This document shows, one piece after another, positions 6,293-32,263 of a stretch of DNA of 64,000 nt. Both the position numbers and the translations under genes were made by a program. The DNA lies in NCBI GenBank assembly GCA_017403145.1, contig JAFQOO010000004.1, forward strand, positions 1 to 64,000, given 5' to 3'. Origin of the DNA: Clostridia bacterium (lineage in GTDB: Bacteria > Bacillota > Clostridia > Christensenellales > DTU072). Numbering within the stretch: the first letter of the stretch is position 1; every line of letters starts with the position of its first letter. The notes beneath the pieces are model-generated. The model was not told where the DNA came from. It was given only the letters and a program-made list of their open reading frames with translations, and did no database searches.

Positions 6293-6301
6293 GGGGATAG
6301 T

Positions 6302-10025: not shown

Positions 10026-10026
10026 T

Positions 10027-11839: not shown

Positions 11840-11868
11840 AATATATCATACGATGAGAGGTTTGTCAA
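11840..11868 (-). promoter_or_regulatory. tracrRNA promoter overlapping the cas9 start codon
   Basis: On the minus strand: consensus TTGACA (11868-11863), 17-nt spacer, TATATT (11845-11840). The -35 box shares base 11868 with the cas9 ATG, and the cas9 ribosome site lies in the spacer. Confidence 0.8.
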
Positions 11869-16265: not shown

Positions 16266-16267
16266 TT

Positions 16268-17161
16268 ATGGGTTTTAGAACGGTGGTTGTTAAAAATAGA
16301 GCTAAGCTTGACTACAAACTAAATTATTTGGTTTGCAGAGCAGATAAGGAAACTCGCGTTTTTATTCCCGAAATATCCGTTCTAATAGTAGAGTCAACAG
16401 GAGTGTCGATAACATCGGCACTCCTATCGGAGTTAATTAAAAATAAGGTAAAAGTAATATTTTGCGACGAAAAACATATTCCACATTCACAGCTGATAGG
16501 CTTATACGATAACTTCCATTCATCCAAAAACGTTTTAAAACAAATCGAGTGGGAAAACAAGGCTAAGCAAAGCGTATGGCAAAATATAGTGTACCATAAA
16601 ATACTAAATCAAAGTAAGGTACTATTCAAGTATGGATTTATAGAAGAAGTTCAAATGCTTTTAGAGTACCTTTCCAATATCACCCTTAATGATAGTACCA
16701 ATCGTGAGGGACATGCCGCAAAGGTTTATTTCAATGCATTGTTTAATAACGCAGGTAGGCGAATACCCTCGTTTTATAATTCAGCATTGAATTATGGATA
16801 TGCTATATTGCTTTCGGCATTTTGTAGAGAAATTACTGCTAGCGGATATATTACTCAACTTGGTATTTGGCATAGTAATGAATTTAACCATTATAACCTT
16901 GCGAGTGATTTGATGGAATCGTTTCGTGTAATCGTGGATGAAATGGTACTTGACCTTGATGATAAATGCAACTTTAAGATTCCAATGGCAAATATTTTGA
17001 ATGCTAAAGTTCGTATTTGCGGTAAAACTATGTTCCTTGATAATGCTATAGAGGTTTATACCAAAGGAATATTTAATGCGCTGGAAACTGGGGATATATC
17101 TAGTATCAAAAATTTTGAAAGCTATGAGTTACCGATATATGAGAACGATTGTGATGTTTGA
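16268..17161 (+). CDS. cas1: CRISPR-associated endonuclease Cas1 (type II)
   Basis: Metal-dependent integrase that, with Cas2, inserts new spacers at the leader end of the array. 297 residues, usual for type II. Likely metal ligands are Glu in NREGHAAKVYFNALF (about 149), His in GIWHSNEFN (about 205) and Glu in LASDLMESFR (about 220). It follows cas9 by two bases and overlaps cas2 by 38 bp. Confidence 0.95.
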   Translation: MGFRTVVVKNRAKLDYKLNYLVCRADKETRVFIPEISVLIVESTGVSITSALLSELIKNKVKVIFCDEKHIPHSQLIGLYDNFHSSKNVLKQIEWENKAKQSVWQNIVYHKILNQSKVLFKYGFIEEVQMLLEYLSNITLNDSTNREGHAAKVYFNALFNNAGRRIPSFYNSALNYGYAILLSAFCREITASGYITQLGIWHSNEFNHYNLASDLMESFRVIVDEMVLDLDDKCNFKIPMANILNAKVRICGKTMFLDNAIEVYTKGIFNALETGDISSIKNFESYELPIYENDCDV

Positions 17162-17444
17162 TTTACCTACGCTTACGCTCGGAGACCTCAGAGAGTATAG
17201 AGCTTTTAGAAGGTTTCTTATAAAAAATGGCTTCATAATGCTACAAGAGTCCATTTATACCAAGCTTTCGTTGAATGCAGTAGGAGCTGAACAAGTCAAA
17301 AAGCTAGTAAAAAAGCATTTGCCAAAAGATGGATTGGTGCAAATGTTAACGATAACGGAAAAACAATTTGCTTCTATGGAACTTCTATTAGGTAAATCAA
17401 AAGATACGTATTGCGATAGTGATAAAAGAATACTGATGTTATGA
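17124..17444 (+). CDS. cas2: CRISPR-associated protein Cas2
   Basis: Small partner of Cas1 in spacer integration, 106 residues. The start at 17124 gives MSYRYMR, as I recall for Streptococcus Cas2; a longer frame from 17076 would lie deep inside cas1. Ferredoxin-like core: RTIVMFDLPT with the conserved Asp, REYRAFRRFLIKNGF and SIYTKL. It overlaps cas1 upstream (17124-17161) and csn2 downstream (ATGA at 17441), so the adaptation genes are tightly coupled. Confidence 0.93.
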   Translation: MSYRYMRTIVMFDLPTLTLGDLREYRAFRRFLIKNGFIMLQESIYTKLSLNAVGAEQVKKLVKKHLPKDGLVQMLTITEKQFASMELLLGKSKDTYCDSDKRILML

Positions 17445-18115
17445 TTAAGATTATTCATATTGACTTTGATACCGAGTTTACTTTTGATAGGCGTGCCAAT
17501 AGTCTATGCTTTGAGTCGCCAACTCATTTTGCTAAGGCGGTATACGATTTAAAAAAGAGTATGGAAGAAGATGGCGAAAGGTTTAGGTTTTCTGAAGGAG
17601 CCACAATGTTAAAGCCTTCCAAGATTGCAGTTGCGTTGACGGATTACTATTCTCTAGATGGTTGGCTAAAAAAGATAAATTCTCTTTTATCCAAAAGATT
17701 GTTGTCAGAAATTTTAAACGAGCAATATGAAATCACAAAGATATATGGGCAATTGTATAATTTAATCGATAATGTAGCACAAGAATACGATGCACCTATT
17801 ATGCTAAATGAAGATTGTGATTATTCAACGTTAATCAAGCTGTTGAACCCAATGGTAAACGTAGAGTCGGAAACGTTGCTTGAAAGATTAGTAGATTTTA
17901 TTAATCTTTGCGTCGAATTTTTAAAAATAAAGGTACTTATTCTCGTAGACGTAAAGCATTATTTAGAAGAAAATGAATTACTTAGTCTTGCAAAGCATTG
18001 TGCACTAAAAGAAGTTGGATTGTTTATGCTTGGTTCAAGCTGTCCATATTGTATTGATGGCGAAAGAGCAGTTGTGATAGACAAGGACTATTGTGAAATT
18101 CTTGTAAAAGAATAA
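17441..18115 (+). CDS. csn2: CRISPR-associated protein Csn2
   Basis: Type II-A hallmark adaptation protein. In known systems it forms a DNA-encircling tetramer ring that works with Cas1-Cas2 and Cas9 in spacer capture. At 224 residues it is the short form (about 220 in Streptococcus). The fold is inferred from position and from segments such as KIAVALTDYYSLDG (about 61-74), the long helices around SEILNEQYEITKIYGQLYNL, and the beta strand KVLILVDVKHYLEENEL (about 165-181). The start overlaps the cas2 stop by 4 bp. The CRISPR promoter lies in its last codons. Confidence 0.88.
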   Translation: MIKIIHIDFDTEFTFDRRANSLCFESPTHFAKAVYDLKKSMEEDGERFRFSEGATMLKPSKIAVALTDYYSLDGWLKKINSLLSKRLLSEILNEQYEITKIYGQLYNLIDNVAQEYDAPIMLNEDCDYSTLIKLLNPMVNVESETLLERLVDFINLCVEFLKIKVLILVDVKHYLEENELLSLAKHCALKEVGLFMLGSSCPYCIDGERAVVIDKDYCEILVKE

Positions 18116-18130
18116 TCAATATGTTATAAT
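18102..18130 (+). promoter_or_regulatory. CRISPR array promoter in the csn2 end/leader
   Basis: TTGTAA (18102-18107), 17-nt spacer, TATAAT (18125-18130), start site near 18137, about 70 nt before the first repeat. Confidence 0.65.
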
Positions 18131-18207
18131 ATAAATATACAATTTTTACTGAAAAACGTTACTTTCACCTACCGTTTAAAAGAAAACTTAAACATTTGAG
18201 GTTTGAG
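18116..18207 (+). promoter_or_regulatory. CRISPR leader with a duplicated anchoring heptamer
   Basis: 92 bp AT-rich leader ending ATTTGAG-GTTTGAG immediately before the first repeat, which itself starts GTTTGAGAG. ATTTGAG matches the leader-anchoring sequence I recall for streptococcal II-A arrays. Confidence 0.7.
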
Positions 18208-20025
18208 GTTTGAGAGTAATGTTGTTCTAGAAGGTAATCAAACGTGGGAGAAAGTGAAATGAAAAACATATTTGTTTGAGAGTAATGTTGTTCTAGAAGG
18301 TAATCAAACTACGCAGATGTCTTCTACCTTTCGCATAGGGTTTGAGAGTAATGTTGTTCTAGAAGGTAATCAAACTAAGTTCTAGGTTACTACTCGAAGA
18401 ATTAGGTTTGAGAGTAATGTTGTTCTAGAAGGTAATCAAACCGAAGAAGAAGCTATTAAAATGTACGTTAGGTTTGAGAGTAATGTTGTTCTAGAAGGTA
18501 ATCAAACCCTACGCTAAGAAACTAAGCGTATCGTCAAGTTTGAGAGTAATGTTGTTCTAGAAGGTAATCAAACAGTGCTATGCACGATTTCGTGGAATGC
18601 GGTGTTTGAGAGTAATGTTGTTCTAGAAGGTAATCAAACTAATTGTCAATAGGTTTTTACAACTTTTTTGTTTGAGAGTAATGTTGTTCTAGAAGGTAAT
18701 CAAACCCTAAAAAATGCTTGTTTCAATACTGCGGGGTTTGAGAGTAATGTTGTTCTAGAAGGTAATCAAACAGACTTAATAGCATAAGCAATACGGATAG
18801 TGTTTGAGAGTAATGTTGTTCTAGAAGGTAATCAAACTGATAGGAGATTCTTCTATTATCGCAATAGGTTTGAGAGTAATGTTGTTCTAGAAGGTAATCA
18901 AACGCGGATGCTTCTACCTTCCAAAATGAGGGGGTTTGAGAGTAATGTTGTTCTAGAAGGTAATCAAACCGCACTTCAATGGTATTTTTGTTATTATTGG
19001 TTTGAGAGTAATGTTGTTCTAGAAGGTAATCAAACAAGTAGTAGCACGCACCACCCCAAAAAAGTGTTTGAGAGTAATGTTGTTCTAGAAGGTAATCAAA
19101 CACTATTTAAAAGTGCTTGAGAGGGACGGAGGTTTGAGAGTAATGTTGTTCTAGAAGGTAATCAAACAAACTGCTAAATTTTATCAAAGCTCTATTGGTT
19201 TGAGAGTAATGTTGTTCTAGAAGGTAATCAAACGACCATTACAGCCAACTAGACCTATTATTGGTTTGAGAGTAATGTTGTTCTAGAAGGTAATCAAACT
19301 TTAATATAATAAATGGAAGGTGCAATATGGTTTGAGAGTAATGTTGTTCTAGAAGGTAATCAAACGTATAGAAGTTGGTATTACACTACTTGTAGGTTTG
19401 AGAGTAATGTTGTTCTAGAAGGTAATCAAACCTTGGAGTTCCGGTTAGTCCGACTAGGCGCGTTTGAGAGTAATGTTGTTCTAGAAGGTAATCAAACAAA
19501 GTACCGTGTTCGTGTGCTTTTCTATCGGTTTGAGAGTAATGTTGTTCTAGAAGGTAATCAAACAAATTTGTGACGAATATATTGTTTATACCTGTTTGAG
19601 AGTAATGTTGTTCTAGAAGGTAATCAAACCAACGAAGCGATTATAGCGGACCAGTCCGCGTTTGAGAGTAATGTTGTTCTAGAAGGTAATCAAACGGCTT
19701 TGGTGGGATGTATGGCGATTGGATTGTTTGAGAGTAATGTTGTTCTAGAAGGTAATCAAACATCTTGCCAAGTGTTGCGGTATCTTTCTTTGTTTGAGAG
19801 TAATGTTGTTCTAGAAGGTAATCAAACTAATGAGTATAGGTATACTATCTATGAGGGGTTTGAGAGTAATGTTGTTCTAGAAGGTAATCAAACAAATTCT
19901 TATAAGGAGGTGTTGGAGGATATGTTTGAGAGTAATGTTGTTCTAGAAGGTAATCAAACATTGGCACATATAGATATATGGGTTGAACAGTTTGAGAGTA
20001 ATGTTGTTCTAGCAAGTATGACTCA
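18208..20025 (+). CRISPR. Type II-A CRISPR array, 28 repeats and 27 spacers
   Basis: 36-bp repeat starting GTTTGAGAGTAATGTTG and ending GGTAATCAAAC, in strict 66-bp register: repeat starts run from 18208 to 19990 in steps of 66, so every spacer is exactly 30 nt. All repeats look identical except the last (19990-20025), whose final ~13 bases are degenerate, as expected at the leader-distal end. The first 22 nt pair with the tracrRNA anti-repeat, which fixes plus-strand transcription. Because 66 is divisible by 3, the array is open in several frames, but these are not genes. Confidence 0.98.
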
Positions 20026-20036
20026 CTACCTTAATT

Positions 20037-20070
20037 AAAAATACGAGACGCTTTCGTCTCGTATTTTTTT
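20037..20070. terminator. Bidirectional terminator between the CRISPR array and a convergent gene
   Basis: ATACGAGACG-CTTT-CGTCTCGTAT flanked by an A-run and a T-run. Confidence 0.85.
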
Positions 20071-20079
20071 GTGGTGGGA

Positions 20080-20550
20080 TTATTGATTGGTTACTTTTTT
20101 TAGCATTTCTTTGAATCTGGGTCTGTTGTAGCGTTGGATTATAATAGGGGGAATATGGGTGAGCGCCCATAAGAGGCTAAGAACCGCACTTGCTACACCG
20201 GGCCATATTGCTATGGGAATGAAACCCAATACAAAACATATCGTGTGAGTGGTTTCGGCAACACAACTTTCTTTTATTAGAATGGGGAGTTTTTGTACTG
20301 CACCAACGTCAAGACGTTTTTTTGGCATAAATTTGGGGAAGATTTTTGTAATTATGTTACTAAAATCGGGCCACTTGGTTTTCCACTTCTTGATTTTTAT
20401 TTTTTCGTAGATTTTACCATCTTTTTCCCATTTCCAAGCCTTGAAATAGAAGTTGTATGGATTTATCCAACTTCTAGGGAATATTCTACCTAATATGAAA
20501 ACGAGTAAACCGCTTCCAAGTATAATTATTGCACTATATAACCAATCCAT
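20080..20550 (-). CDS. Membrane protein resembling glycosyl-4,4'-diaponeurosporenoate acyltransferase (CrtO-like)
   Basis: 156-residue protein with an N-terminal helix (about 4-22), NPYNFYFKAWKWEKDGKIYEK (about 31-50), the basic KIKKWKTKWPD, a conserved-looking ESCVAETTHTICF (about 94-106) and a C-terminal IIIQRYNRPRFKEML. The W-x-W-E-x-x-G-x-x-Y plus WK-x-x-x-PD plus E-x-x-x-A-E-x-x-H layout is that of the CrtO acyltransferase family. The assignment is from memory of that pattern. No carotenoid genes are nearby, so the substrate may be another lipid. Confidence 0.6.
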   Translation of the reverse strand: MDWLYSAIIILGSGLLVFILGRIFPRSWINPYNFYFKAWKWEKDGKIYEKIKIKKWKTKWPDFSNIITKIFPKFMPKKRLDVGAVQKLPILIKESCVAETTHTICFVLGFIPIAIWPGVASAVLSLLWALTHIPPIIIQRYNRPRFKEMLKKVTNQ

Positions 20551-20649
20551 TCGTACTATCCTTTGTTTAGTAATAGTATTGTACTATATTTTTATTATTT
20601 AATCAATAAGGTAGGTGTCATTTTGATAGTTTAACAGTTTTGTCGCCTA

Positions 20650-20678
20650 TTGCACAAGAGCGCGGAAAATGGTATAAT
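20650..20678 (+). promoter_or_regulatory. Sigma-A-type promoter for the 20699 gene
   Basis: TTGCAC (20650-20655), 17-nt spacer, TATAAT (20673-20678), 20 nt before the ATG. Confidence 0.7.
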
Positions 20679-20698
20679 TATTATAATTTGGAGAAAAT

Positions 20699-21142
20699 AT
20701 GGACTGGTTTAATTGGATAGGTTTAATTATCGTTGTTATAATTATGTTTCCAAACATAATCTATGCGATAAAAAAGAAGGAAGATTTTTCTAACGATATC
20801 GGCAAAACGATATTACTTTTTGAGCAAATTGGCAGATATGGTTGTATGGCTTTTATGATTTTTAACATTCCTTATACCTATTTTAATTTTTGGTTTGGCA
20901 ATGCTTTAATATTGTACGTAGTTATCAATGCGATTTTAGTTTTAATATACGTAATACTATTTTTCGCTACGTGGAATGCAAAAAACTTATTTAAAGTGCT
21001 GTCGCTTTCTATTTTGCCATCATTGATATTTATCTTTTCGGGAATAACGTTATTAAATATTCCGCTTATGGTTTTTGGCATTACGTTTGCAGTATGCCAT
21101 ATTACGGTATCGGTTAAAAATTACGAAAGAAAAAGTAATTAG
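20699..21142 (+). CDS. Four-helix membrane protein of unknown function
   Basis: 147 residues with hydrophobic segments near 5-22, 40-65, 70-92 and 95-130, and a short basic tail (VKNYERKSN). I do not recognise a family. It has its own promoter and a GGAG ribosome site 8 bp before the ATG. The next gene has a separate promoter. Confidence 0.6.
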   Translation: MDWFNWIGLIIVVIIMFPNIIYAIKKKEDFSNDIGKTILLFEQIGRYGCMAFMIFNIPYTYFNFWFGNALILYVVINAILVLIYVILFFATWNAKNLFKVLSLSILPSLIFIFSGITLLNIPLMVFGITFAVCHITVSVKNYERKSN

Positions 21143-21149
21143 ACCCATA

Positions 21150-21178
21150 TTGATAACTTTTGTTTCTAGTAGTATAAT
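21150..21178 (+). promoter_or_regulatory. Promoter for the glycerophosphodiesterase gene
   Basis: TTGATA (21150-21155), 17-nt spacer, TATAAT (21173-21178), 29 nt before the ATG. Confidence 0.7.
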
Positions 21179-21207
21179 AACTTTGTTATTACTTTCGAGG
21201 TATTATT

Positions 21208-21996
21208 ATGAAAAAGTTAGTCGCTTGTCTATTGTTATTGATTGTGTTGGTTTTTGCTTGTGCGTGCAATAAAGAAACGCCAACGGATACTGTTGCTTTT
21301 GAAAATGGTAACGTAAAAATGATTGCACATAGAGGTCTTTCCGGGTTAGAAGTGGAAAACACGGATTCGGCGTTTATCTCTGCGGGTGAGCGTTCATACT
21401 ATGGTATCGAAACTGATATTAGGCGCACCGCTGATGGCAATTTCGTAATTTGCCACGACGATACGGTAAAAAGATTATCCGGGCAAGATATAGCGGTTGA
21501 AAGCTCCACTTTCGCGGAGTTATTAAGCATACCTCTCCTTCCCAAAAGAGAGGGTGGCGAGGTTGAGCATCTTACTACGCTTGAAAGTTATATTACTATT
21601 TGTAAGAGATATGATAAACAAGCCATTCTTGAATTTAAATCTAACTTTACCCAAGAGGAAATCGCTAGGATAATAGCTATAATTCAAGCTGAAAACTATA
21701 TTCATAAAGTAACCTTTATATCGTTTGGCTACGATAATTTGACATACGTAAGGAATATTCTTCCCGCTCAATCGGCTATGTTTTTGTTTTCCGAGCTTAG
21801 CGACGATATAATGGAAAAGTTAATCCGTGATAAAATTGACATTGCAATTTATTATAAAGCACTAACCAAAAAAGCGGTTGAAGAGTTTCATAATGCAGGA
21901 CTAGAGGTTAATTGCTGGACTGTTGACGATAAAGCAAGGGCAGAAAAACTTGCTAGTTGGGGCGTGGACTATATAACCACTAATATCTTGGAGTAA
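21208..21996 (+). CDS. Glycerophosphodiester phosphodiesterase lipoprotein
   Basis: Hydrolyses glycerophosphodiesters to glycerol-3-phosphate and an alcohol. 262 residues. N-terminal lipoprotein signal (LLLLIVLVFACAC, with two possible lipidated cysteines, 18 and 20), then a GDPD TIM barrel: MIAHRGLSG (about 35) with the catalytic His-Arg, GIETDIR (Glu and Asp metal ligands), VICHDDTV with the second catalytic His, LEFKS, and the C-terminal VNCWTVDD. It acts outside the membrane and could feed glycerol-3-phosphate into the glycerol metabolism encoded at 49-52 kb. Confidence 0.88.
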   Translation: MKKLVACLLLLIVLVFACACNKETPTDTVAFENGNVKMIAHRGLSGLEVENTDSAFISAGERSYYGIETDIRRTADGNFVICHDDTVKRLSGQDIAVESSTFAELLSIPLLPKREGGEVEHLTTLESYITICKRYDKQAILEFKSNFTQEEIARIIAIIQAENYIHKVTFISFGYDNLTYVRNILPAQSAMFLFSELSDDIMEKLIRDKIDIAIYYKALTKKAVEEFHNAGLEVNCWTVDDKARAEKLASWGVDYITTNILE

Positions 21997-22061
21997 TATA
22001 GATAAAATAGTGGCGGTTAAGCCATCTTTTACGCAAAGGACTTATACGATTTATACCATTA

Positions 22062-22090
22062 TTGACACGATTTGCTCATTATGGTAACAT
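22062..22090 (+). promoter_or_regulatory. Promoter for the 22131 lipoprotein/RNA-repair operon
   Basis: TTGACA (22062-22067), 17-nt spacer, TAACAT (22085-22090). The TTG of the -35 box opens a spurious longer frame for the lipoprotein gene. Confidence 0.7.
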
Positions 22091-22130
22091 ATTAATATAC
22101 TTTAATAAATATAACGTTAAGGAGGTTATT

Positions 22131-22694
22131 ATGAAAAATTTATATAAAATCGTTGTTTTCATACTGCTAATGGCGTTATCCCTCTCTTTGTGCGGTTGTA
22201 TTTTTAATAAAGGTACGGTCAGTGAACTAGAGGGTATATATGCTCTGGAGGAATATTTTTACAAGTCATATTCGGGTACGGAATATGAATTCGAAGAAAA
22301 TTATGAGTACTTTATCTTGGTTGTTCGTAACGATGCCAAAGTCGAGGTTATATATAAATTAGTGGGCGGAACCGAACAAAAATCTATACATTCCTATACC
22401 ATATATTTTAACGAAGACGATAATAAAGTGGTTAATAGGATTATGATACAAAACTTCCCGCAAAGCGAATATTCCGTTGAGGATGGTAAGCTTATTGCTA
22501 GCGACGTAACTGCTGATATAAACTTTAATTTTTATCCTAAACGCGAAGATTTGGTTTCTAACGAGTTCACACTTAACCTAAAGCAAGGCTCCGAAAGAAT
22601 AAAGTATCAGTTTAACCGCGTTAAGGATAGGGTAAACGATAAGAATATCGAAAAAGCTAAAAAAATAAGTAGAGAAATGATTATTGACGATTAG
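22131..22694 (+). CDS. Small lipoprotein of unknown function
   Basis: 187 residues starting at the ATG at 22131, which has AAGGAGG 6 bp upstream. Signal peptide with lipobox LSLCGC (Cys about 23). The rest is hydrophilic and rich in Glu, Tyr and Lys, with beta-type segments (NYEYFILVVRNDAKVEVIYKL) suggesting a calycin or lipocalin-like exported domain; this is inference. Its stop is one base before the methyltransferase ATG, so it is the first gene of the RNA-repair operon, an odd partner for cytoplasmic enzymes. Confidence 0.7.
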   Translation: MKNLYKIVVFILLMALSLSLCGCIFNKGTVSELEGIYALEEYFYKSYSGTEYEFEENYEYFILVVRNDAKVEVIYKLVGGTEQKSIHSYTIYFNEDDNKVVNRIMIQNFPQSEYSVEDGKLIASDVTADINFNFYPKREDLVSNEFTLNLKQGSERIKYQFNRVKDRVNDKNIEKAKKISREMIIDD

Positions 22695-22695
22695 T

Positions 22696-23376
22696 ATGCT
22701 AGAAGAACGTTATTACGTTAAATTATTGCTAAGCGTTATTCGAGGTAGCATTCTTAGGCGTGGAGGAACGCCCGATGCTATCCTCAATAAGGATTGCTTT
22801 TTAGACGAAGAGAAGGCGGAATTGCTAGCTATTGCCGAACGCGAGGGTGTCAAGACGCACTATTTTAAAAGGACCAACGTGTTGCCTCGCGTACGCAAGG
22901 TGTTGGGTTTTTTGGCTTCTGTTTATCCAACCAATATGCTAGACGTTGGTAGCGGTAGAGGTGCTTTTTTATTCCCTTTTATAGACGAATTTCCCTTTTG
23001 TGAGGTTACTAGTTTAGAGTTGCTTGAATCTAGAGCACAAATGCTTGCCGATATCGAGAGAGGGGGTGAGGTTAATCTAAAAGTAGTCGAGGGCGATTTA
23101 TGCCTTTACAACGCACCCGATAAATTCTTTGACGTAGTAACGATTTTAGAGGTGCTAGAGCATATACCAAACGTCAAAAAAGCTATCGCCAATGCGGTAA
23201 GGCTAGCTAAAAATTACGTCGTAGTAACCGTTCCATCGGAAGAAGACGACAACCCCGAGCATATACATTTGCTCACCAGAGAAAAACTAACGGAGTATTT
23301 TAACGAGTGTGGAGTATATTCTTTAACCTTTGATGGCGTAGTAGGGCACACCATTATGATAGCAAGGATAGGATAA
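22696..23376 (+). CDS. SAM-dependent methyltransferase in the RNA-repair operon, possibly Hen1-like
   Basis: 226-residue Rossmann methyltransferase with SAM motif I MLDVGSGRGAF (81-91). EVLEHIP follows (Glu152, Glu155, His156), with a downstream NPEHIHLLT (His189/His191). Bacterial Hen1, which 2'-O-methylates repaired RNA 3' ends, uses an E-x-x-E-H...H metal site, and this pattern could be that. Ordinary small-molecule methyltransferases also carry EVLEH, so the reading is open. The ATG at 22696 follows the lipoprotein stop by one base. The stop overlaps the RNA ligase ATG (TAATG), which argues for an RNA-end substrate. Confidence 0.7.
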   Translation: MLEERYYVKLLLSVIRGSILRRGGTPDAILNKDCFLDEEKAELLAIAEREGVKTHYFKRTNVLPRVRKVLGFLASVYPTNMLDVGSGRGAFLFPFIDEFPFCEVTSLELLESRAQMLADIERGGEVNLKVVEGDLCLYNAPDKFFDVVTILEVLEHIPNVKKAIANAVRLAKNYVVVTVPSEEDDNPEHIHLLTREKLTEYFNECGVYSLTFDGVVGHTIMIARIG

Positions 23377-24164
23377 TGAGTTACGATTATAAAATAATTA
23401 AATACCCTAGAACACAGCATTTGCAGGGCTCTAGGCTACAAGAGGGCGACGAGGACTTAAGCCAAATAGAATTCGATTACGTGCTTGGCAAAAATATCGT
23501 AATAGAAGAAAAGATAGATGGAGCTAATACCGCAATATCCTTTGACGGAGAGGGTAATTTATTGCTCCAAAGTCGTGGGCACTACCTAATAGGTGGATAT
23601 CGCGAAAGACACTATAACCTATTTAAGCAATGGGCAAACCTAAACGTCGATACCCTGTTCGATGCGCTTTCCAATCGTTACATTATGTATGGAGAATGGA
23701 TGTATGCAAAGCACGCAGTCTTTTATGATGCACTCCCGGACTATTTTATGGAGTTTGATATTTTTGATAGAGAACGCGGAGTATTTTTGGATACACCCTC
23801 AAGAAGAGCCATTACGAACAAAATGGGAATAATATCATCCGTTCCCGTATTAGCAAGTGGTATCTTTAATAGTAAAGAAAGCGTTTTGGGCTATTTGGGT
23901 AACTCAAATTATATAACCGAGGACCATATCGAGGTTTTACGTACTATTGCTACTAGGCAAGGAATAGACGTTGAAAGGGCTATAAAAGAAACTGACCCCA
24001 GTCTAAAAATGGAAGGACTATACATAAAAATAGAAGAAAACGGAATTGTTACCGATAGAGTAAAATACGTTAGAGCTTCCTTTATTCAAAGCATAATGCA
24101 AGCAGAGGGACATTGGCTTAACAAACCTATAATTCCTAATCAACTAAAGAATGGCAAGTTTTGA
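23376..24164 (+). CDS. ATP-dependent RNA ligase (Rnl family)
   Basis: 262-residue nucleotidyltransferase that would seal RNA 5'-phosphate/3'-OH ends through a lysyl-AMP intermediate. Motif I EEKIDGAN (Lys46), motif III YGEWMYAKH (105-113), IIIa FMEFDIFDR (124-132), motif IV KMEGLYIKIE (211-220) and motif V DRVKYVRASF (227-236) are all in place. It is the size of a minimal ligase with a short C-terminal extension. It is coupled to the methyltransferase (TAATG) and overlaps the HD-Pnk gene by 14 bp. Confidence 0.9.
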   Translation: MSYDYKIIKYPRTQHLQGSRLQEGDEDLSQIEFDYVLGKNIVIEEKIDGANTAISFDGEGNLLLQSRGHYLIGGYRERHYNLFKQWANLNVDTLFDALSNRYIMYGEWMYAKHAVFYDALPDYFMEFDIFDRERGVFLDTPSRRAITNKMGIISSVPVLASGIFNSKESVLGYLGNSNYITEDHIEVLRTIATRQGIDVERAIKETDPSLKMEGLYIKIEENGIVTDRVKYVRASFIQSIMQAEGHWLNKPIIPNQLKNGKF

Positions 24165-25332
24165 GTGTGATTATCTAAATAAGCTTTTAGAAGTCATATC
24201 CCTTTATGATGGGGATAAACTTTGGTGTGCTATAGAAGAACTTGGTTTCAAATCACTCCTTGATAAAATGCAAAAAGTTCCTCAACAAGAGGAATATCAC
24301 GGAGAGGGTAACGTGCTAAACCACGTCAAGCTTGTTTGCCAAAGCTTGGTTTCTTTTGACGAATTCAAAAGGGCAAACGATGAGGATAAAATAATATTAT
24401 TTCTTTCCGCGCTACTTCACGACGTTGGTAAAATTAAGCGTACGAGAATAGAAGATGGAAAAATTATTTCTCCCGGACATTCAGCTCGTGGTGCTATTAT
24501 GGCTAGAGAGTTTATGTGGAAGGACTTGGAGTTATCGGGAACGATGGAAACCCAGAGAATTCGAGAGGCAGTTTGCACTCTTGTAAAATATCATTCCTTT
24601 CCCCCTTATGCCATAAAAGACGACGATGCGCTGGTTAGATTGTTGCAAATTACTGCGTTAGGAGAATTAACCCCTGCTTTTTCCGCATATAAACTATACC
24701 TACTCGCAAAAGCCGACGTTTTGGGCAGAGTGTGCGCCGACCAAGATGAACAATTAGAAAAAGTAGAACTCTTTAGCATTCTTGCCGAGGAATACGATTG
24801 CCTCCATAAACACTATGCTTTTAAAGATAGCTACACAAAACACGCATATTTTTTGGGTAAAACAAATTGGCCGAGCGATAGTTTATATAATTCCACTTGG
24901 GGAGAAGTTATACTTCTATCCGGGCTTCCGGGAACGGGCAAGGATACTTTTATTGCAAAGCATTTTCCTCATATGCCGGTGGTTTCACTCGATACAATAA
25001 GGAAAAAACTTGACGTTGCACCTACTGAACCTCAAGGCGCGGTCGTTGCGGTTGCTATGCAAGAGTCAAAAGAGTACCTAAGGAACAAACAGCCCTTCGT
25101 ATGGAACGCAACAAACATTACCGCACAAACTCGCCATAAACTGATATCACTATTCGAAAAGTATAACGCGAGTGTAAAAACCATTTTTTTAGAAACCGAG
25201 TGGAGCGAAGAACTTGATAGAAATCTTTCTCGCGAAGACGTAGTACCGCAAGCGGAAATAGAAAGAATGTTGTCAAAGCTTGAAATCCCCGAACCATTCG
25301 AATGTGAAAAGGTAGAATGGGTGATAACTTGA
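24151..25332 (+). CDS. HD-Pnk RNA/DNA end-healing enzyme (HD phosphoesterase + 5'-OH polynucleotide kinase)
   Basis: 393 residues, two domains. The N-terminal HD domain has NHVKLV (His58), LLHDVGK (His90-Asp91) and SPGHSARG (His110); in the characterised Runella HD-Pnk this domain removes 2',3'-cyclic or 3' phosphates. The C-terminal P-loop kinase has GLPGTGKDT (258-266), SLDTIRKK (Asp281) and an arginine-containing lid near 357-365; it would phosphorylate 5'-OH ends. Together they turn nuclease-cleaved RNA ends into substrates for the adjacent ligase. The start overlaps the ligase end by 14 bp. A terminator follows. Confidence 0.88.
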   Translation: MASFECDYLNKLLEVISLYDGDKLWCAIEELGFKSLLDKMQKVPQQEEYHGEGNVLNHVKLVCQSLVSFDEFKRANDEDKIILFLSALLHDVGKIKRTRIEDGKIISPGHSARGAIMAREFMWKDLELSGTMETQRIREAVCTLVKYHSFPPYAIKDDDALVRLLQITALGELTPAFSAYKLYLLAKADVLGRVCADQDEQLEKVELFSILAEEYDCLHKHYAFKDSYTKHAYFLGKTNWPSDSLYNSTWGEVILLSGLPGTGKDTFIAKHFPHMPVVSLDTIRKKLDVAPTEPQGAVVAVAMQESKEYLRNKQPFVWNATNITAQTRHKLISLFEKYNASVKTIFLETEWSEELDRNLSREDVVPQAEIERMLSKLEIPEPFECEKVEWVIT

Positions 25333-25361
25333 TAAATACGTGAATATAGCTAAAAAATAGT

Positions 25362-25390
25362 CCCGATATTAGGTAATATCGGGATTTTTT
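25362..25390 (+). terminator. Terminator of the RNA-repair operon
   Basis: CCCGATATT-AGGT-AATATCGGG followed by A and six T. Confidence 0.88.
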
Positions 25391-25401
25391 AATATTGGCT
25401 A

Positions 25402-25430
25402 TTGTAATTAAAGTGGGTATATGATATTAT
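25402..25430 (+). promoter_or_regulatory. Promoter for the TIR-methyltransferase gene
   Basis: TTGTAA (25402-25407), 17-nt spacer, TATTAT (25425-25430). Confidence 0.6.
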
Positions 25431-25464
25431 TTTATATGTCGAAATTTGTCGAAGGAAGGAAAAA

Positions 25465-26868
25465 ATGGATAAAGAATATAACGTTTTTATTTGCTACCGT
25501 GGGGAAAGCGGTGGAGAAATCGGTTCTAGTATTTATTCCGATTTATGTACTTATTCTAAAAATAAGCTAAAATTATTTTTTGCTCCCAAGTGTCTAAAAT
25601 ATGGCGAAAACTTTATGTCGGACTGTAGAGATATAGCGGGTAAGGTATCACTTATGATACTTATTTTAACACCCAATTTCTTTGAAGGCTGTACTCATAA
25701 AGACGACGTTGTTTTGCAAGAGCTTAAATCGGCTTTAGCAAATCCTACAACTGCATTTTTACCTATCAAAAAGGCGGGCTTTGAGTTTAACGACGAAGTT
25801 TTGGAAAGCCTATTTAACGAAAGCGAAATTGATAGAATAAAGCATATTAGTGCCATAACTTATACCGACGTATATTCGTTCAAGTCTATGGAACTGCTAC
25901 TTCCCATTCTTGAAGACAAGGTTGGCGTAACCGATTATGACGAAATAATCCAAAAAGATTTGGTTGCAAAACAAGCTCGCACCAAAAAGCGCGTACATAT
26001 CCAATCGGATGGTAAAACCGGTTTCTTTAGCCAAGATAACAAGGTGGAAGCAAAACGTCTTGAAACCCAACAAAGAATGCTTCTAGAGTACGATATGCCC
26101 GTATACGAAAAGTATTTGGAGGGTAAGAGCAATCTTAACGTTTTGGATATCGGTTGCGGTAATGGTCGCGCTCTAATGACAAGACTTGGCAAGCGCGAAG
26201 AGGTTGATAAAATCATCGGCGTAGAGTTTGACGAGAGCTTTGTTAATAAGGCAAAAGCCGATTATGAAAGCGACAAAGTAAAGTTTTATAAGGCGGACGT
26301 TGAAAGCGAGGACTTTGACGAGATTTTAGAAGAAATTATGGAAGAAAACGATATCGAGAAATTCGATTGGATAAATATTCTTGCTGTAATGTCCCATCTA
26401 AAATCCCCATATCAATTACTCAAAACCCTACGAAAATTCTGCAAAAAAGGTGCGGTTGTTTTTATCAGAAATATCGATGACGGACTCAATATGGCGCATC
26501 CTGATGAAAACTTTATGTTCGAGCGTGCATTTAATATGATTGCAAAGTGCGATACTACGGGATATCGTCATTCGGGTAGAGAGCTATTTACCTTGCTACA
26601 ACGCTCGGGATATAAAAATATATCGGTAGAAAAAATGGGACTAAATTCGGCGGGAATGGATTATGACGAAAAAGAAGCATTCTTCAGTACGATATTTATG
26701 TTCCTCAAAAATGGTATACGCGCCACCTATAATAATAACCCGCGCGACAAAGAAATCAAGACCGAGTACGAGTGGTTAAACGAGCATTTTGAAGAGTTGG
26801 AAGAAAGATTTCTTTCACCCGAAACCTTTATCAATTTTGGTTTCTTGATAGTATGTGCAACGGTATAA
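25465..26868 (+). CDS. TIR domain-SAM methyltransferase fusion protein
   Basis: 467 residues. Residues 1-150 look like a bacterial TIR domain: YNVFICYRGESGGEIGSSIY at the start, LFFAPKCLKYGENF (BB-loop region), MILILTPNFFEGC, and a possible catalytic Glu86 in VVLQELKSAL. TIR domains in defence systems cleave NAD+ or make cyclic ADP-ribose variants. A linker (about 150-220) leads to a class I methyltransferase with motif I LNVLDIGCGNGRAL (224-237), acidic motif II IIGVEFD and INILAVMSHL. No membrane segment. AAGGAAGG precedes the ATG. A GNAT gene follows after 10 bp. Function unknown; a defence or nucleotide-signalling role is inference from the TIR domain and the neighbours. Confidence 0.78.
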   Translation: MDKEYNVFICYRGESGGEIGSSIYSDLCTYSKNKLKLFFAPKCLKYGENFMSDCRDIAGKVSLMILILTPNFFEGCTHKDDVVLQELKSALANPTTAFLPIKKAGFEFNDEVLESLFNESEIDRIKHISAITYTDVYSFKSMELLLPILEDKVGVTDYDEIIQKDLVAKQARTKKRVHIQSDGKTGFFSQDNKVEAKRLETQQRMLLEYDMPVYEKYLEGKSNLNVLDIGCGNGRALMTRLGKREEVDKIIGVEFDESFVNKAKADYESDKVKFYKADVESEDFDEILEEIMEENDIEKFDWINILAVMSHLKSPYQLLKTLRKFCKKGAVVFIRNIDDGLNMAHPDENFMFERAFNMIAKCDTTGYRHSGRELFTLLQRSGYKNISVEKMGLNSAGMDYDEKEAFFSTIFMFLKNGIRATYNNNPRDKEIKTEYEWLNEHFEELEERFLSPETFINFGFLIVCATV

Positions 26869-26878
26869 GGAGAGAGAT

Positions 26879-27400
26879 ATGAAGAAAGATATAAATACCT
26901 TTGAGTTTAAAAAGTTGACGATAGATAGCGTTCCTTTACTCCTAGAAGTACAAGAGGAAGCCTTTGAATATGCTAAAGGCAATACCGATTTTCTAAGAAG
27001 AAACACCTATGAAACTTTGGCTGTTTGCTTCGAGGGACAAAGTGAAGTGTTAGGTGCTTACGATGGAGATAGGCTAGTTGCATTCGGTATATTGTTCGTA
27101 GCGGGAGAGGGAAAGGAAAATCTTGCCTACGACGTGGACGAAATTGAGGATATAAATACGTCCGCTAACGTCAAATTGATTATCGTTCGTCCCACTTATC
27201 GTGGCAATGGCTTGCAAAGAGAGTTGGTAAGCAGACTAGAAAAAACTGCAAAAGAGTTGGGATACAAGTGGCTTTGCGCCACGGTAGCGCCTAGCAATAA
27301 TTGGAGCTATGATAACTTTATAAAAAGCGGTTTTGAGCAAAATAAAATACTTGTTAAATATGGTGGCCTAACTAGAGCACTATTAGTAAAGAAAATATAA
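26879..27400 (+). CDS. GNAT-family N-acetyltransferase
   Basis: 173 residues from the ATG at 26879 (AAGGAGAGAG just upstream; an earlier in-frame ATG at 26855 lies inside the TIR gene). Acetyl-CoA motif A is IIVRPTYRGNGLQRELVSRLEKTAKELGY without exact numbering, followed by APSNNWSYDNFIKSGF (motif B). Acetyl acceptor unknown. It is probably co-transcribed with the TIR-methyltransferase gene and ends before a terminator at 27422, so the two form a two-gene unit. Confidence 0.82.
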   Translation: MKKDINTFEFKKLTIDSVPLLLEVQEEAFEYAKGNTDFLRRNTYETLAVCFEGQSEVLGAYDGDRLVAFGILFVAGEGKENLAYDVDEIEDINTSANVKLIIVRPTYRGNGLQRELVSRLEKTAKELGYKWLCATVAPSNNWSYDNFIKSGFEQNKILVKYGGLTRALLVKKI

Positions 27401-27421
27401 ATACGTTTAAATTCAATATTC

Positions 27422-27450
27422 AAAAAAGCAATTATTTATAATTGCTTTTT
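27422..27450 (+). terminator. Terminator after the TIR-GNAT unit
   Basis: AAAGCAATTA-TTTA-TAATTGCTTT with flanking A and T runs. Confidence 0.85.
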
Positions 27451-27470
27451 ATTATAAAATAAGGGAACCT

Positions 27471-30400
27471 ATGATAAAAACCAAAACGACTTTCAAGTAC
27501 CTTTTCATCATTTTTATTTGTTTATTAGCGTTTGCATTTGGCACTTTCAATTTTGGGGTAACTGCAGAAGCAAGAACGGTTACAGTCAATAATGCAAGTA
27601 CTCTTAACTCGGTGCTTAATAATTTGAAAAATTACGATGGCGCCGAAATTCATATTGGCGGTAATGGGGATATCGACTACTCAGATTACGACCATATACC
27701 CATAAATTTAGCTAGCTACGTATACGAGGAATTGGAAATCAGCATATATTTTGATGCCTCGGTTAAAAACGTTTGGCATAGAACGAGTGGCTCTTTGCTA
27801 GACGCTACCGAGAACTATGGCTTGTTTACTTACGCTACCAATGGCTACGTACCGGTATATTATAAGGTGAATTTCGATGCAGGAGAGGGTACTATAGTTA
27901 AAGGATATAACTATTATAGATTTGGAAGCGATAACGTATTGCCTTCCGTAACCGCACCGGAAGGAAGCACCTTTAAACATTGGGTATTAAAGGACGACCC
28001 AAGCCAAGCTGAGGTTAGTAAAATTAGTGCCACCACTTGGGGTGTTCTAGATTTTGTAGCGGTATATGAAACTATTGCCGAGCCCACTCCAACGACCTAT
28101 CCTATAGTGTATAGCGATACTATGCTTGGTACTAGTATCGAAAGTGAAAACGACCTATATACGCTAGGCACGTCGTTAAGTTTAGAAAGCCTTGTTAAAA
28201 ATGGCTTTAGCTTTGTCGGCTGGGAAGTCGCTGGAGGTCAGGCTACTATAAAAGAGTTGCCGGAAGAATTACCTGCGGAATATCTAAGCAACGACGGTAA
28301 AATATATTTAGATGCAGTTTGGGAGCTTGAAAGTCCTACTTTGGCTTCTTTAAGTGGAATTAGTAAAATATATGACGGAAATGAAAGCACGCTTGAAATA
28401 GAGGTTTCACATTCCGCGATAGAGGAATTGGAACTAGCCTACGCTTGGTATAAGGCGGGTAGTGAGGAAGATAAAAATACGCCAACCGCTTGTGGAATGA
28501 AAGAAAAGCTTACTTTCCTTATGCCCGAAGAAAACTATTATATGGTTGACGTTAAAGTAACGCATAGGTCGAGTGGTTTAGAAAGTGCAGTTGTATCGAG
28601 CGATTGGGTAAAGGTTAAAATTGATAGGGCGACAATCGAAATTGAACTTGCTAACAACGTTATAGTTACTAAGCCCTATGATGGTAATAAAGAGGCTAGC
28701 GGTTTAATAGAGCTGGGAACACATTATTTTGTAAATGGAATAGTTGGTAGCGACCTTGTTGAGGTAACGCTGTCAAGCGCTGAGTTTGCAAGTGCGAACG
28801 TTGGCGATAGTATGGTTACCGTTTATTTTTCGTCCCTCAGTTTTGGTGATAGCTCGTTGGAAAAATGCTACGAGTTTACTCCCGTAAGTTATCAGTTGCA
28901 AGGTAGGATAGGGCAAATAGAATTGAGCCTTAACAAATTGAGTGCCCCCACTATTACTAAGGATTACGACGGAACAACGTTGGTAGATTATAATTTTACC
29001 GAAGGAGTGGACTATTCGTTTAACGGAGGACTAGGTGCTGTTGAGCATACGATAAGTGCTAGCTACGATAATAAAAACGCGGGCGAAAGAGTGGTAACTT
29101 TAACCATTAGTTTTGAAAATGATAATTATTGTTTAGCCGACAACAAGCTTGAGTTTGATGCAAGCATTAACGCTAAGACGATTACCCCTATAAAATTATC
29201 GGTACCGACTATATCGAAAGACTATGATGGAACAAGGGCGGTTGAATACACCTTTGAGCGGGGAGTGGATTACGAGCTTGAAGGAGCACTCGAAAATGAA
29301 ATAATAGGGGTAAGCCTATTCTCAAGTTACGATAGAAAGGACGTTACCGCCTCTTTGGTTTGCTTGCTCTTTGGCGAACTGGAATTTGCCGAGGGAGTAA
29401 GGAGTGAAAACTACGACTACGTGAAGAACTATCACGAAATAAACTATCTTGCAGCTATTACCCCTTGCGTGCTTAGTCTATCGCCCCAAAATGCAAAGAA
29501 AATCTATGGTGAAAAAGACGAGCTTTCGTGCGTTATTTCCACGGGCATTATGGATGAAGAAATCACCATAAAGTATTTGCGCGAGGAGGGCGAAAGAGCA
29601 GGTGAATACGAGTACAATGGTGTAGAAATGGTAATATCAAATGCCAACTACCTTTTGAGCTTTGTAGCTACCGATAGCAAGTTTACAATAGAACCCAAGA
29701 TTCCGACTCTTATCTTCCCCTCTTTCAAGGCTATGGATTATAGCGCGAGTGCCACCTTGAATAATGCTGTGCTTGATAGTGAAGGTTACGAATTTATAGA
29801 TGGTAAATATATTACAGAGCTTGGTGAGTTTTATTGGCTTGATAGCGATATTGTGCCCTCTGTTGAAAACAGCGGTTACATTATGGTATTCCTTCCAAAC
29901 GATAGGCATAATTACGATTATACTTTTTTGGAAGGCTATAGCGAAATGGGCGAAATCGTTATAAGAAATATCCCTCTAACTATTTTACCAATAGACCCCG
30001 TGCCTGCTTTGATAGACGAAAGCTTTACTCTTGCAATTGGTATGCTATGGTCGAATTTGACTCTACCGCAAGGATGGAAGCTGGTTGATACTATAGGGCT
30101 GGATACTACTTCGGTGGTGCGTGGGAAGGTCGGCGAAAATATAACCTATCCCAATGCACTCTCTTACTCCTTTGACGATACCAAGAACTATAACGTTATT
30201 TATAAGGACTTGGTTGTTAACCTTTCTTCTACCGTTATAGCTTATACTTATAAAGGCGAAAAGATATATTCAGGTAACCAAACAAACATAAGTAGTGGTC
30301 TAAACAATGAAATATACGTTAGCTTTAATTTGGAAAATCCATTTGAAAAAGTGGGATACAAAACAACAAAATGGAGCTTTGATGGTATCGAGCTGATACC

Positions 30401-31742
30401 GAGCAATGAAAATGGCATTTGCATTGGATACACCTATTTAATCACAGATGCGAATCTTATACAAAACGAAATCGTAATAGCAGTAGAGATAGCGCCGAGG
30501 AGCGACGTCAAAGTTACCTACCGCCATTTTTATGAAAATCTAGAAGGCTCCTATAACGATACTTGTGATGAAGAAATAATCTTTAACGATGGTGTCGCCG
30601 ACGCTTTACGCTCGTTGCTAGAAAGTGATATCAAGAATAAAACGGGCTTCAATTATATAGGTTCTACGTCGGAAGGCAACGACTTTATAACCGAGTTCGT
30701 TGTATCGGCAAGCGGTGATAGTATTATAGATTTTTATTATGCGCGCAAGCAAATTTTAATTAGTTACGTCGACGACAAATATCTAGCATTAAATCCGATA
30801 GGAAGCCTTCCCCAAGACGATTACGTTAAATTCGGCGTGCCTTTCGAGCTCAAGGCTCCTACCGACTACGTTATATATGGTTATAACTTTAGCGGTTATA
30901 CCGATGGTGTAACGACGGATGGAGATAAACTCAAATTATTTAACGGAAGCTACGTGGTTATGCAAGATGTTACTAGCATTACCTTTACAGTAAATATGAA
31001 TGCCGACACTAACGTGGGTTATCTTGTAAAAAAATATTTTGACAACGTACTAACTGAGGAAATGCGTTATGGTACTACCGGCGAGCTAGTAGATATATCG
31101 GGAGAAACCTACGTTGGATACGAAAGGGTAACAAACGCGCAAGAAGTACTTAGTGGTACTATTAGCGGATATGCTTTAGATGAAGATGGAACGATTATCG
31201 GTGGCAGTAGGCTAGAGCTAGCAATTTATTTTGTAACGAAAAAGTATCAAATTGAAATTGACGATAGCTTGGGGCTAGATGGATTTGAAGCTGTTGAGGG
31301 CGAAAATATAATTTTACCGAGCGCGCCTACAAAGGTTCCCGATGGTATGCAGTTCGTTGGTTGGGAAATAAACGGTGTTCTATATATGGCGGGAGAAAAC
31401 TTCCTAATGCCATCAGGCAACGTAACTCTTTATCCTAGGTGGGAAAAGGTAGGAGCGGAATCACCCGAAGACGAAATACCCGATGAAGAAATCCCCGACG
31501 ACAATAATACGCCTAGTGAACCAAGCGAGGGCGAAAACGAAAATGGCAACGAAACCAATACCATAGAAGGTGATAAAGGTGGTATTGGAGTAGGTGGAAT
31601 AGTGGGAATAGTACTAGGTTCCGTAGCGGTGCTTAGTGCTGTTCTAGGTGTTGCTCTTAGTGTCGCTAAAAAGAACAAAGATAGGGCTATGATAATAGAT
31701 AGATTGGAAGCTAAAAAGCATCGTAGAGGTCGTAAAAGCTAG
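27471..31742 (+). CDS. Giant surface protein with InlB-type and YDG repeats, C-terminal membrane anchor
   Basis: 1423 residues. Signal peptide (about 1-34, helix FKYLFIIFICLLAFAFGTF). InlB-type segments occur at about 125-215 and again near the C terminus (GMQFVGWEINGV...NVTLYPRWE). Four YDG-type repeats carry the motif K-x-YDG: SKIYDGNES (~298), TKPYDGNKE (~401), TKDYDGTT (~501) and SKDYDGTR (~583). A further segment YRHFYENLEG recalls MucBP domains. An acidic Pro/Glu-rich linker (EIPDEEIPDDNNTPSEP) leads to a glycine-rich transmembrane helix (GGIVGIVLGSVAVLSAVLGVALS) and a basic tail ending HRRGRKS, so it is membrane-anchored instead of sortase-anchored. An adhesin role is inference. Confidence 0.85.
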   Translation: MIKTKTTFKYLFIIFICLLAFAFGTFNFGVTAEARTVTVNNASTLNSVLNNLKNYDGAEIHIGGNGDIDYSDYDHIPINLASYVYEELEISIYFDASVKNVWHRTSGSLLDATENYGLFTYATNGYVPVYYKVNFDAGEGTIVKGYNYYRFGSDNVLPSVTAPEGSTFKHWVLKDDPSQAEVSKISATTWGVLDFVAVYETIAEPTPTTYPIVYSDTMLGTSIESENDLYTLGTSLSLESLVKNGFSFVGWEVAGGQATIKELPEELPAEYLSNDGKIYLDAVWELESPTLASLSGISKIYDGNESTLEIEVSHSAIEELELAYAWYKAGSEEDKNTPTACGMKEKLTFLMPEENYYMVDVKVTHRSSGLESAVVSSDWVKVKIDRATIEIELANNVIVTKPYDGNKEASGLIELGTHYFVNGIVGSDLVEVTLSSAEFASANVGDSMVTVYFSSLSFGDSSLEKCYEFTPVSYQLQGRIGQIELSLNKLSAPTITKDYDGTTLVDYNFTEGVDYSFNGGLGAVEHTISASYDNKNAGERVVTLTISFENDNYCLADNKLEFDASINAKTITPIKLSVPTISKDYDGTRAVEYTFERGVDYELEGALENEIIGVSLFSSYDRKDVTASLVCLLFGELEFAEGVRSENYDYVKNYHEINYLAAITPCVLSLSPQNAKKIYGEKDELSCVISTGIMDEEITIKYLREEGERAGEYEYNGVEMVISNANYLLSFVATDSKFTIEPKIPTLIFPSFKAMDYSASATLNNAVLDSEGYEFIDGKYITELGEFYWLDSDIVPSVENSGYIMVFLPNDRHNYDYTFLEGYSEMGEIVIRNIPLTILPIDPVPALIDESFTLAIGMLWSNLTLPQGWKLVDTIGLDTTSVVRGKVGENITYPNALSYSFDDTKNYNVIYKDLVVNLSSTVIAYTYKGEKIYSGNQTNISSGLNNEIYVSFNLENPFEKVGYKTTKWSFDGIELIPSNENGICIGYTYLITDANLIQNEIVIAVEIAPRSDVKVTYRHFYENLEGSYNDTCDEEIIFNDGVADALRSLLESDIKNKTGFNYIGSTSEGNDFITEFVVSASGDSIIDFYYARKQILISYVDDKYLALNPIGSLPQDDYVKFGVPFELKAPTDYVIYGYNFSGYTDGVTTDGDKLKLFNGSYVVMQDVTSITFTVNMNADTNVGYLVKKYFDNVLTEEMRYGTTGELVDISGETYVGYERVTNAQEVLSGTISGYALDEDGTIIGGSRLELAIYFVTKKYQIEIDDSLGLDGFEAVEGENIILPSAPTKVPDGMQFVGWEINGVLYMAGENFLMPSGNVTLYPRWEKVGAESPEDEIPDEEIPDDNNTPSEPSEGENENGNETNTIEGDKGGIGVGGIVGIVLGSVAVLSAVLGVALSVAKKNKDRAMIIDRLEAKKHRRGRKS

Positions 31743-31759
31743 TTTAGGCTTCCGTTAGT

Positions 31760-32263
31760 CTATTTACGTACACCCAATATATGTAAACCTTTTGCATAAT
31801 TATAATCGTAAGCGTTTATCGGTTTTGCATAAACGTCGTAGGAGTGCGAAGCAACAAGGGGTATCGTACCATCAAATCCCACTACTACGACAGCGTGATA
31901 ATATAGGTTTGGTGTTCTCCCTAAAAAGATAACGTCGCCAATAGAAAGCTCGCGTAACTCTTTCACCTCGGCGAAGGGTCCATACCCTTCGCCGATTTTA
32001 TTTATCACAATATTGTTGGTCAAGAAAGCATATAATTGGTTTACTCCACTCCAAGCGGGTGCGCGGTCGTTTGCCGAGTTATAATACCAACCTATCTCTT
32101 TTGTATAGTTCATTTGGTTGCTCCCTGCATATATACATTGGGAGCAAAAGTTTGTACAATCTCCGCCAAGAGAGGAAAAGTCATAGTAGGCCGGGTTTCT
32201 TTTTAGGGCGTATTCACGTGCATAACTAAGTGCGCTTGCTCTATCATATTTTTCAATTTTCAT
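31760..32263 (-). CDS. Putative amidase-domain protein (Amidase_6 type)
   Basis: 167 residues with YDRASALSYAREYALKRNPAYYDF followed by GGDCTNFCSQCIYAG (catalytic-type Cys in DCTNF), a later GDVIFLG and HAVVVVGFDG with the likely His. This NlpC/CHAP-like cysteine-hydrolase layout matches the putative amidase domain found in many Firmicutes wall proteins. There is no signal peptide, so it may be cytoplasmic or exported another way. It is convergent with the giant surface protein. Confidence 0.75.
   Translation of the reverse strand: MKIEKYDRASALSYAREYALKRNPAYYDFSSLGGDCTNFCSQCIYAGSNQMNYTKEIGWYYNSANDRAPAWSGVNQLYAFLTNNIVINKIGEGYGPFAEVKELRELSIGDVIFLGRTPNLYYHAVVVVGFDGTIPLVASHSYDVYAKPINAYDYNYAKGLHILGVRK

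Follow-up and report, generated by a model that had tools for sequence, protein, structure and literature searches.

A protein of 467 residues that joins an N-terminal TIR domain to a class I SAM methyltransferase domain, encoded directly upstream of a GNAT acetyltransferase in a Clostridia bacterium, belongs to a sizeable and patchily distributed family, and sequence comparison indicates that the pair probably takes part in defence. The two genes lie in a stretch of 64,000 nucleotides (positions 1 to 64,000 of contig JAFQOO010000004.1), hereafter the window. The explanation that we favour, at a little below an even chance, is a two-gene stress or anti-phage module, made up of a TIR effector, a methyltransferase-fold sensor and a GNAT accessory enzyme.

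The fusion gene occupies positions 25465..26868 as a single open reading frame with an ATG start; it, the GNAT gene and the signals flanking the pair are all on the plus strand. Its product comprises the TIR domain (residues 1-153, 25465..25923), a linker (residues 154-192, 25924..26040) and the methyltransferase domain (residues 193-467, 26041..26865), an architecture proposed originally from the letters alone, on which the reading frame, the Pfam methyltransferase matches and the TIR fold model all agree. In a full-length AlphaFold model (pLDDT 86), two well-folded domains are connected by a linker of low confidence at about residues 156-184 (pLDDT<50 at residues 156-178 and 180-184), which is also the least conserved stretch of the fusion in the alignment of the window clade. 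The GNAT gene (26879..27400, 173 residues) follows 10 nt past the fusion-gene stop and was delimited by its Pfam match, start context and conservation in the clade. Its probable start is the ATG at 26879, preceded by the ribosome site AAGGAGAGAG, which was preferred to a GTG at 26855.

The original prediction gave the pair its own promoter and terminator. A terminator-like hairpin with a 12-bp stem and a T-run (25359..25386), which ends the upstream RNA-repair operon, and a promoter-like site, TTGTAA-17-TATTAT with a TG ahead of the second hexamer (25402..25430, 9/12), are indeed present, but as consensus matches only. Downstream, an A+T-rich hairpin followed by a T-run (27423..27449) is the probable terminator of the pair; it was read from the sequence and was not flagged by the terminator scan. 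Rfam gave no match across 20000-32000.

Analysed by itself, the TIR half of the window protein gave no Pfam TIR match at E<1, which is the one point in favour of residues 1-153 being some other Rossmann-like domain. Against this, homologous fusions exceed the curated cut-off of Pfam TIR_2, with E values as low as 5e-18, and a profile of 16 TIR halves from the family and its close kin matches the SARM1/TIR-1 NAD+ hydrolases in the PDB at E ~1e-24. In Foldseek, the TIR domains of SARM1/TIR-1 are likewise the top PDB matches (probability 1.00, TM ~0.7-0.8) of an AlphaFold2 structure computed for residues 1-161 (pLDDT 86, pTM 0.84). By these three lines of evidence the first 153 residues carry a TIR fold; the other Rossmann-like domain, refuted by the family profile and the Foldseek match, retains next to no probability. 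The TIR-like domain of the original prediction, which structure modelling could have overturned, was thus borne out by it.

The previously proposed candidate catalytic residue, Glu86 (codon 25720..25722), lies in the helix after strand C and aligns with the conserved TIR glutamate of SARM1 ('DWVHKE') and TIR-1. It is invariant in 69/69 non-identical fusions, which span several TIR subtypes and identities as low as ~20%, and it is retained here as the candidate TIR catalytic glutamate. This invariance, together with the NAD hydrolase fold, supports the reading of the TIR half as effector. The same reading is weakened by the many gut bacterial TIRs that were assayed and lacked NADase activity (PMC9092222).

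Residues 220-390 of the C-terminal half match Pfam Methyltransf_31 (E=3e-13) and Methyltransf_23 (E=5e-13), and Foldseek places the domain nearest to 3mgg (E=2.5e-16). Besides the Rossmann-like fold, the window protein has an intact glycine-rich motif I, LDIGCGNG, within residues 225-236 (NVLDIGCGNGRA, 26137..26172), and keeps the acidic Glu254 after strand 2 and Asp278. The domain is therefore a complete class I methyltransferase, as had been predicted, and with its SAM site intact the window member may well methylate. A weak match of this half to PADLOC mad2 was dismissed as a generic methyltransferase match.

Four residues of this half are each present in 69/69 of the non-identical fusions: Glu195; Asp338, in the Asp338-Asp339-Gly340 sequence after strand 5 (26476..26484); and Arg368 and Arg372 of RHSGR (26566..26580). 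Motif I Gly230 and the acidic residue at 254 are each found in 65/69. Five fusions, from one branch holding L037, L040, L041 and L054 and another holding L038, have a degenerate SAM motif but still keep Glu86, Glu195, Asp338, Arg368 and Arg372. This combination supports the effector and sensor reading, and the degeneracy argues that, at least in these relatives, the domain has a binding or sensing role instead of methylating. The invariant residues may be situated in a pocket, and the set is partly ordinary for the fold, because free-standing 3mgg has counterparts of Glu195, Arg198, Asp338 and Arg372, though not of Arg368 and Asp339. Within the clade, the presumed sensor half shows no sign of evolving faster, mean identity being 68% for the TIR and 66% for the methyltransferase.

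Phages that destroy SAM are known, and together with the intact SAM site of the window clade they count for a mechanism in which an active methyltransferase restrains the TIR while SAM is plentiful or a substrate is methylated, and SAM degradation by a phage or loss of the substrate frees it. We consider such a guard improbable, since at least five fusions with a degenerate SAM motif keep the TIR glutamate and the GNAT would be left unexplained. In the two-gene module that we favour, the methyltransferase fold would instead be the sensory or regulatory half, binding a ligand or a protein at a site that includes Glu195, Asp338, Arg368 and Arg372 (in the window member probably SAM as well) and controlling the TIR through the flexible linker. 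Once released or oligomerised, the TIR would consume NAD+ or make an ADP-ribose product by means of Glu86, and this activity would stall or kill the cell. The GNAT would be an accessory enzyme of the window subfamily and would modify either the ligand, the TIR protein itself or the target of the TIR. The intact SAM site of the window protein weighs against this module.

The GNAT gene matches Pfam Acetyltransf_1 (PF00583) at E=2e-8 and has the R-G-x-G acetyl-CoA motif, as YRGNGL. Its pairing with the fusion is conserved rather than accidental: a GNAT is found directly downstream in 13/13 full-length members of the window subfamily, a linkage that supports the two-gene reading, and the truncated member L107 also has one in this position. 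L068 carries a GNAT gene too. In the two next branches, L080 and L081, no GNAT was seen in the DNA examined, and most TIR-methyltransferase genes are without one.

Several methyltransferases that have no TIR (L102, L108, L109, L112 and L117) are likewise followed by a GNAT. In the methyltransferase tree, from which L117 was left out for its broken frame, L102, L108, L109 and L112 form one supported clade with the window subfamily, L080 and L081; in the GNAT tree, the GNATs of the TIR-less pairs are sisters of the window GNATs. Both placements fit loss of the TIR in these pairs. Their existence implies that the methyltransferase and GNAT have a role without the TIR, which weakens the two-gene TIR module.

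TIR proteins with a DUF6273 domain and no methyltransferase are also followed by a GNAT gene that overlaps or abuts theirs (L046:8429-9784, L048:641-1996, L049:8977-10314, L050:9871-11211). These GNATs form a lineage separate from the window GNATs, so the pairing of TIR and GNAT seems to have arisen at least two times. In two genomes, GNATs akin to the TIR-DUF6273 partner also neighbour an antiporter-like gene (L149:1899-2387, L152:6715-7203).

Twofold recruitment of a GNAT to TIR proteins, and the occurrence in one operon of a GNAT and an enzyme-like methyltransferase with its SAM motif intact, would also suit a pathway in which the TIR produces a messenger derived from ADP-ribose, and the methyltransferase and GNAT add methyl or acetyl groups to this messenger or to an amino acid conjugated to it, giving a specific or host-safe signal. 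No conserved receptor or effector gene of the kind that Thoeris needs is found nearby, most TIR-methyltransferase genes have no GNAT, and some fusions have lost the SAM motif, so we judge such tailoring of a signal unlikely.

Monophyly of the TIRs carried by TIR-methyltransferases is rejected (AU p=1e-4). The TIR of the window type clusters with those on proteins with DUF6273, BspA-type LRR, NACHT, NB-ARC-TPR, HAD, ATP-grasp/radical-SAM and IF-2B-like domains. Examples of this subtype are joined to HAD phosphatase-like (L157:6145-7320), ATP-grasp/radical-SAM (L156:5540-8770), IF-2B-like (L154:6117-8927), NB-ARC-TPR (L159:7243-9747) and BspA LRR (L057:9658-10883) domains, and the genome of the window encodes a TIR-NACHT protein of 764 aa with the same subtype (L047:8398-10692; G000:C8:28397-30691). 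Non-monophyly alone could also come from TIRs leaving TIR-methyltransferases for other proteins. Related methyltransferases with different TIR types (L101 and L106; L054 and L037) point to genuine exchange, although long branches are involved. Such exchange would be expected if effector and sensor were separable modules, and the position of the methyltransferase is taken elsewhere by NACHT, NB-ARC-TPR or LRR, which are sensor-type domains. A wider formulation, that of a TIR immune receptor family with a methyltransferase-fold ligand sensor, in which SAM chemistry is dispensable in some members and a GNAT was recruited more than one time, is possible but on the doubtful side.

Searches for TIR-methyltransferase fusions, proposed as a check of the original prediction, recovered a family of 69 non-identical members, mainly in gut Clostridia, rather than a single case. 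Among 297 genomes of the window's order, 43 gave matches; by our reading of these, a genuine fusion of TIR and methyltransferase is present in 22 genomes, some of which have several copies. The scan of the genome collection yielded 52 loci, of which 50 have family members; these 50 come from gut and rumen Clostridia and Bacilli, Acholeplasma granularum, Bacteroidota and Actinomycetota. No additional full-length fusion turned up in 397 sampled genomes from elsewhere in the phylum, where all five matches were confined to the TIR half. The alignment of the full family was too divergent for pattern scanning, for which the closer subset A4 could be used. One locus, L090, contains two different TIR-methyltransferase genes (5992-7299 and 9339-10616) on opposite strands ~2 kb apart, and L110 likewise holds two different ones.

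Within the genus, matches to the methyltransferase half occur in three of the 12 other species, at 57%, 56% (at a truncated contig end) and 32% identity, and one of the three is of a different subtype. This patchiness supports the two-gene module. The module is weakened by the lack of relatives in IMG/VR and the phage collection; the plasmid collection likewise gave none apart from two generic methyltransferases.

The 106 genes flanking the relatives, in a raw tally against PADLOC and Pfam, are mostly housekeeping genes with few defence matches, with one type II CRISPR neighbour and few other PADLOC matches, which further weakens the module and makes nearness to CRISPR and RNA-repair genes weak evidence for defence. 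The end of the CRISPR array does lie ~5.4 kb upstream of the fusion gene, as claimed, and at L087:2331-8270 a gap of 118 nt separates a TIR-methyltransferase gene from the cas9-cas1-cas2 locus downstream of it; two such instances are too few to establish an association. The CRISPR-Cas locus of the window (11853-20038) is type II-A-like, with cas9, cas1, cas2, a csn2-like gene and the array. Between it and the fusion gene is an RNA-repair-like cassette (22699-25332) of a methyltransferase, an RNA ligase and an HD plus polynucleotide-kinase-like protein, the gene for the last being absent from the 12 genus mates.

The housekeeping neighbourhoods, the TIR-less methyltransferase-GNAT pairs and the nearest folds, which are methyltransferases of small molecules or peptides (LahSB among them), would be expected if the methyltransferase and GNAT acted on a small molecule or peptide outside defence, with the TIR serving either as a scaffold or as an NAD-dependent regulator in housekeeping. 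The TIR glutamate is, however, invariant across all fusions, presence in the genus is patchy and metabolic neighbours are not conserved, and we give this possibility a low probability. The defence role originally suggested thus remains plausible through the SARM1-type glutamate, the patchiness and the occurrence of the TIR subtype on NACHT, NB-ARC and LRR proteins, but finds little backing in the flanking genes. Should the two-gene module hold, TIR immunity in gut bacteria would gain a new sensor fold, in a compact system with clear test residues (Glu86; Glu195, Asp338, Arg368 and Arg372). Comparison of SAM-competent with SAM-degenerate members makes the question of enzyme or sensor directly testable.

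No description of TIR-methyltransferase fusions was found in the literature, mainly open-access, and no PADLOC, Pfam or NCBIfam model covers the whole fusion; within this scope the pair can still be called undescribed. By the sequence features tested, the window protein is not a Thoeris, CBASS or TIR-NLR component. For Thoeris, no ThsA-type effector is present among the scanned neighbours, PADLOC gives no ThsB match for the protein, and the relatives have no conserved effector neighbour. For CBASS and Pycsar, the C-terminal half is a methyltransferase rather than a SAVED- or STING-like sensor, and no cyclase is among the scanned neighbours. The NACHT or NB-ARC NTPase of bNACHT-like TIR-NLR proteins is absent from the window protein and present in the separate TIR-NACHT gene.

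The nearest solved structures of the C-terminal half, 3mgg (a Methanosarcina mazei methyltransferase) and LahSB, are both free-standing proteins without a TIR; 3mgg has the E..RL..Q and GR.IY.LL motifs in common with the fusion family. On the TIR side, SARM1 and C. elegans TIR-1, the nearest solved folds and profile matches, have the position of the catalytic glutamate in common with the fusion. SARM1 is organised as ARM-SAM-TIR with its TIR at the C-terminus, whereas the window protein places the TIR at the N-terminus, followed by the methyltransferase, and has no ARM or SAM domain. Compared by sequence, the fusion takes its place among TIR effectors whose C-terminal partner can be exchanged, as a variant for which we found no earlier account. 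Like the bacterial TIR defence proteins (Thoeris ThsB, TIR-STING and TIR-SAVED CBASS, SPARTA TIR-APAZ, TIR-NLR and Cat1), it combines a TIR bearing the conserved glutamate with a second domain, in those proteins a sensing or regulating one; where they have a ThsA, cyclase, STING/SAVED, APAZ, NTPase or CARF partner, the window pair has a C-terminal class I methyltransferase and a GNAT.
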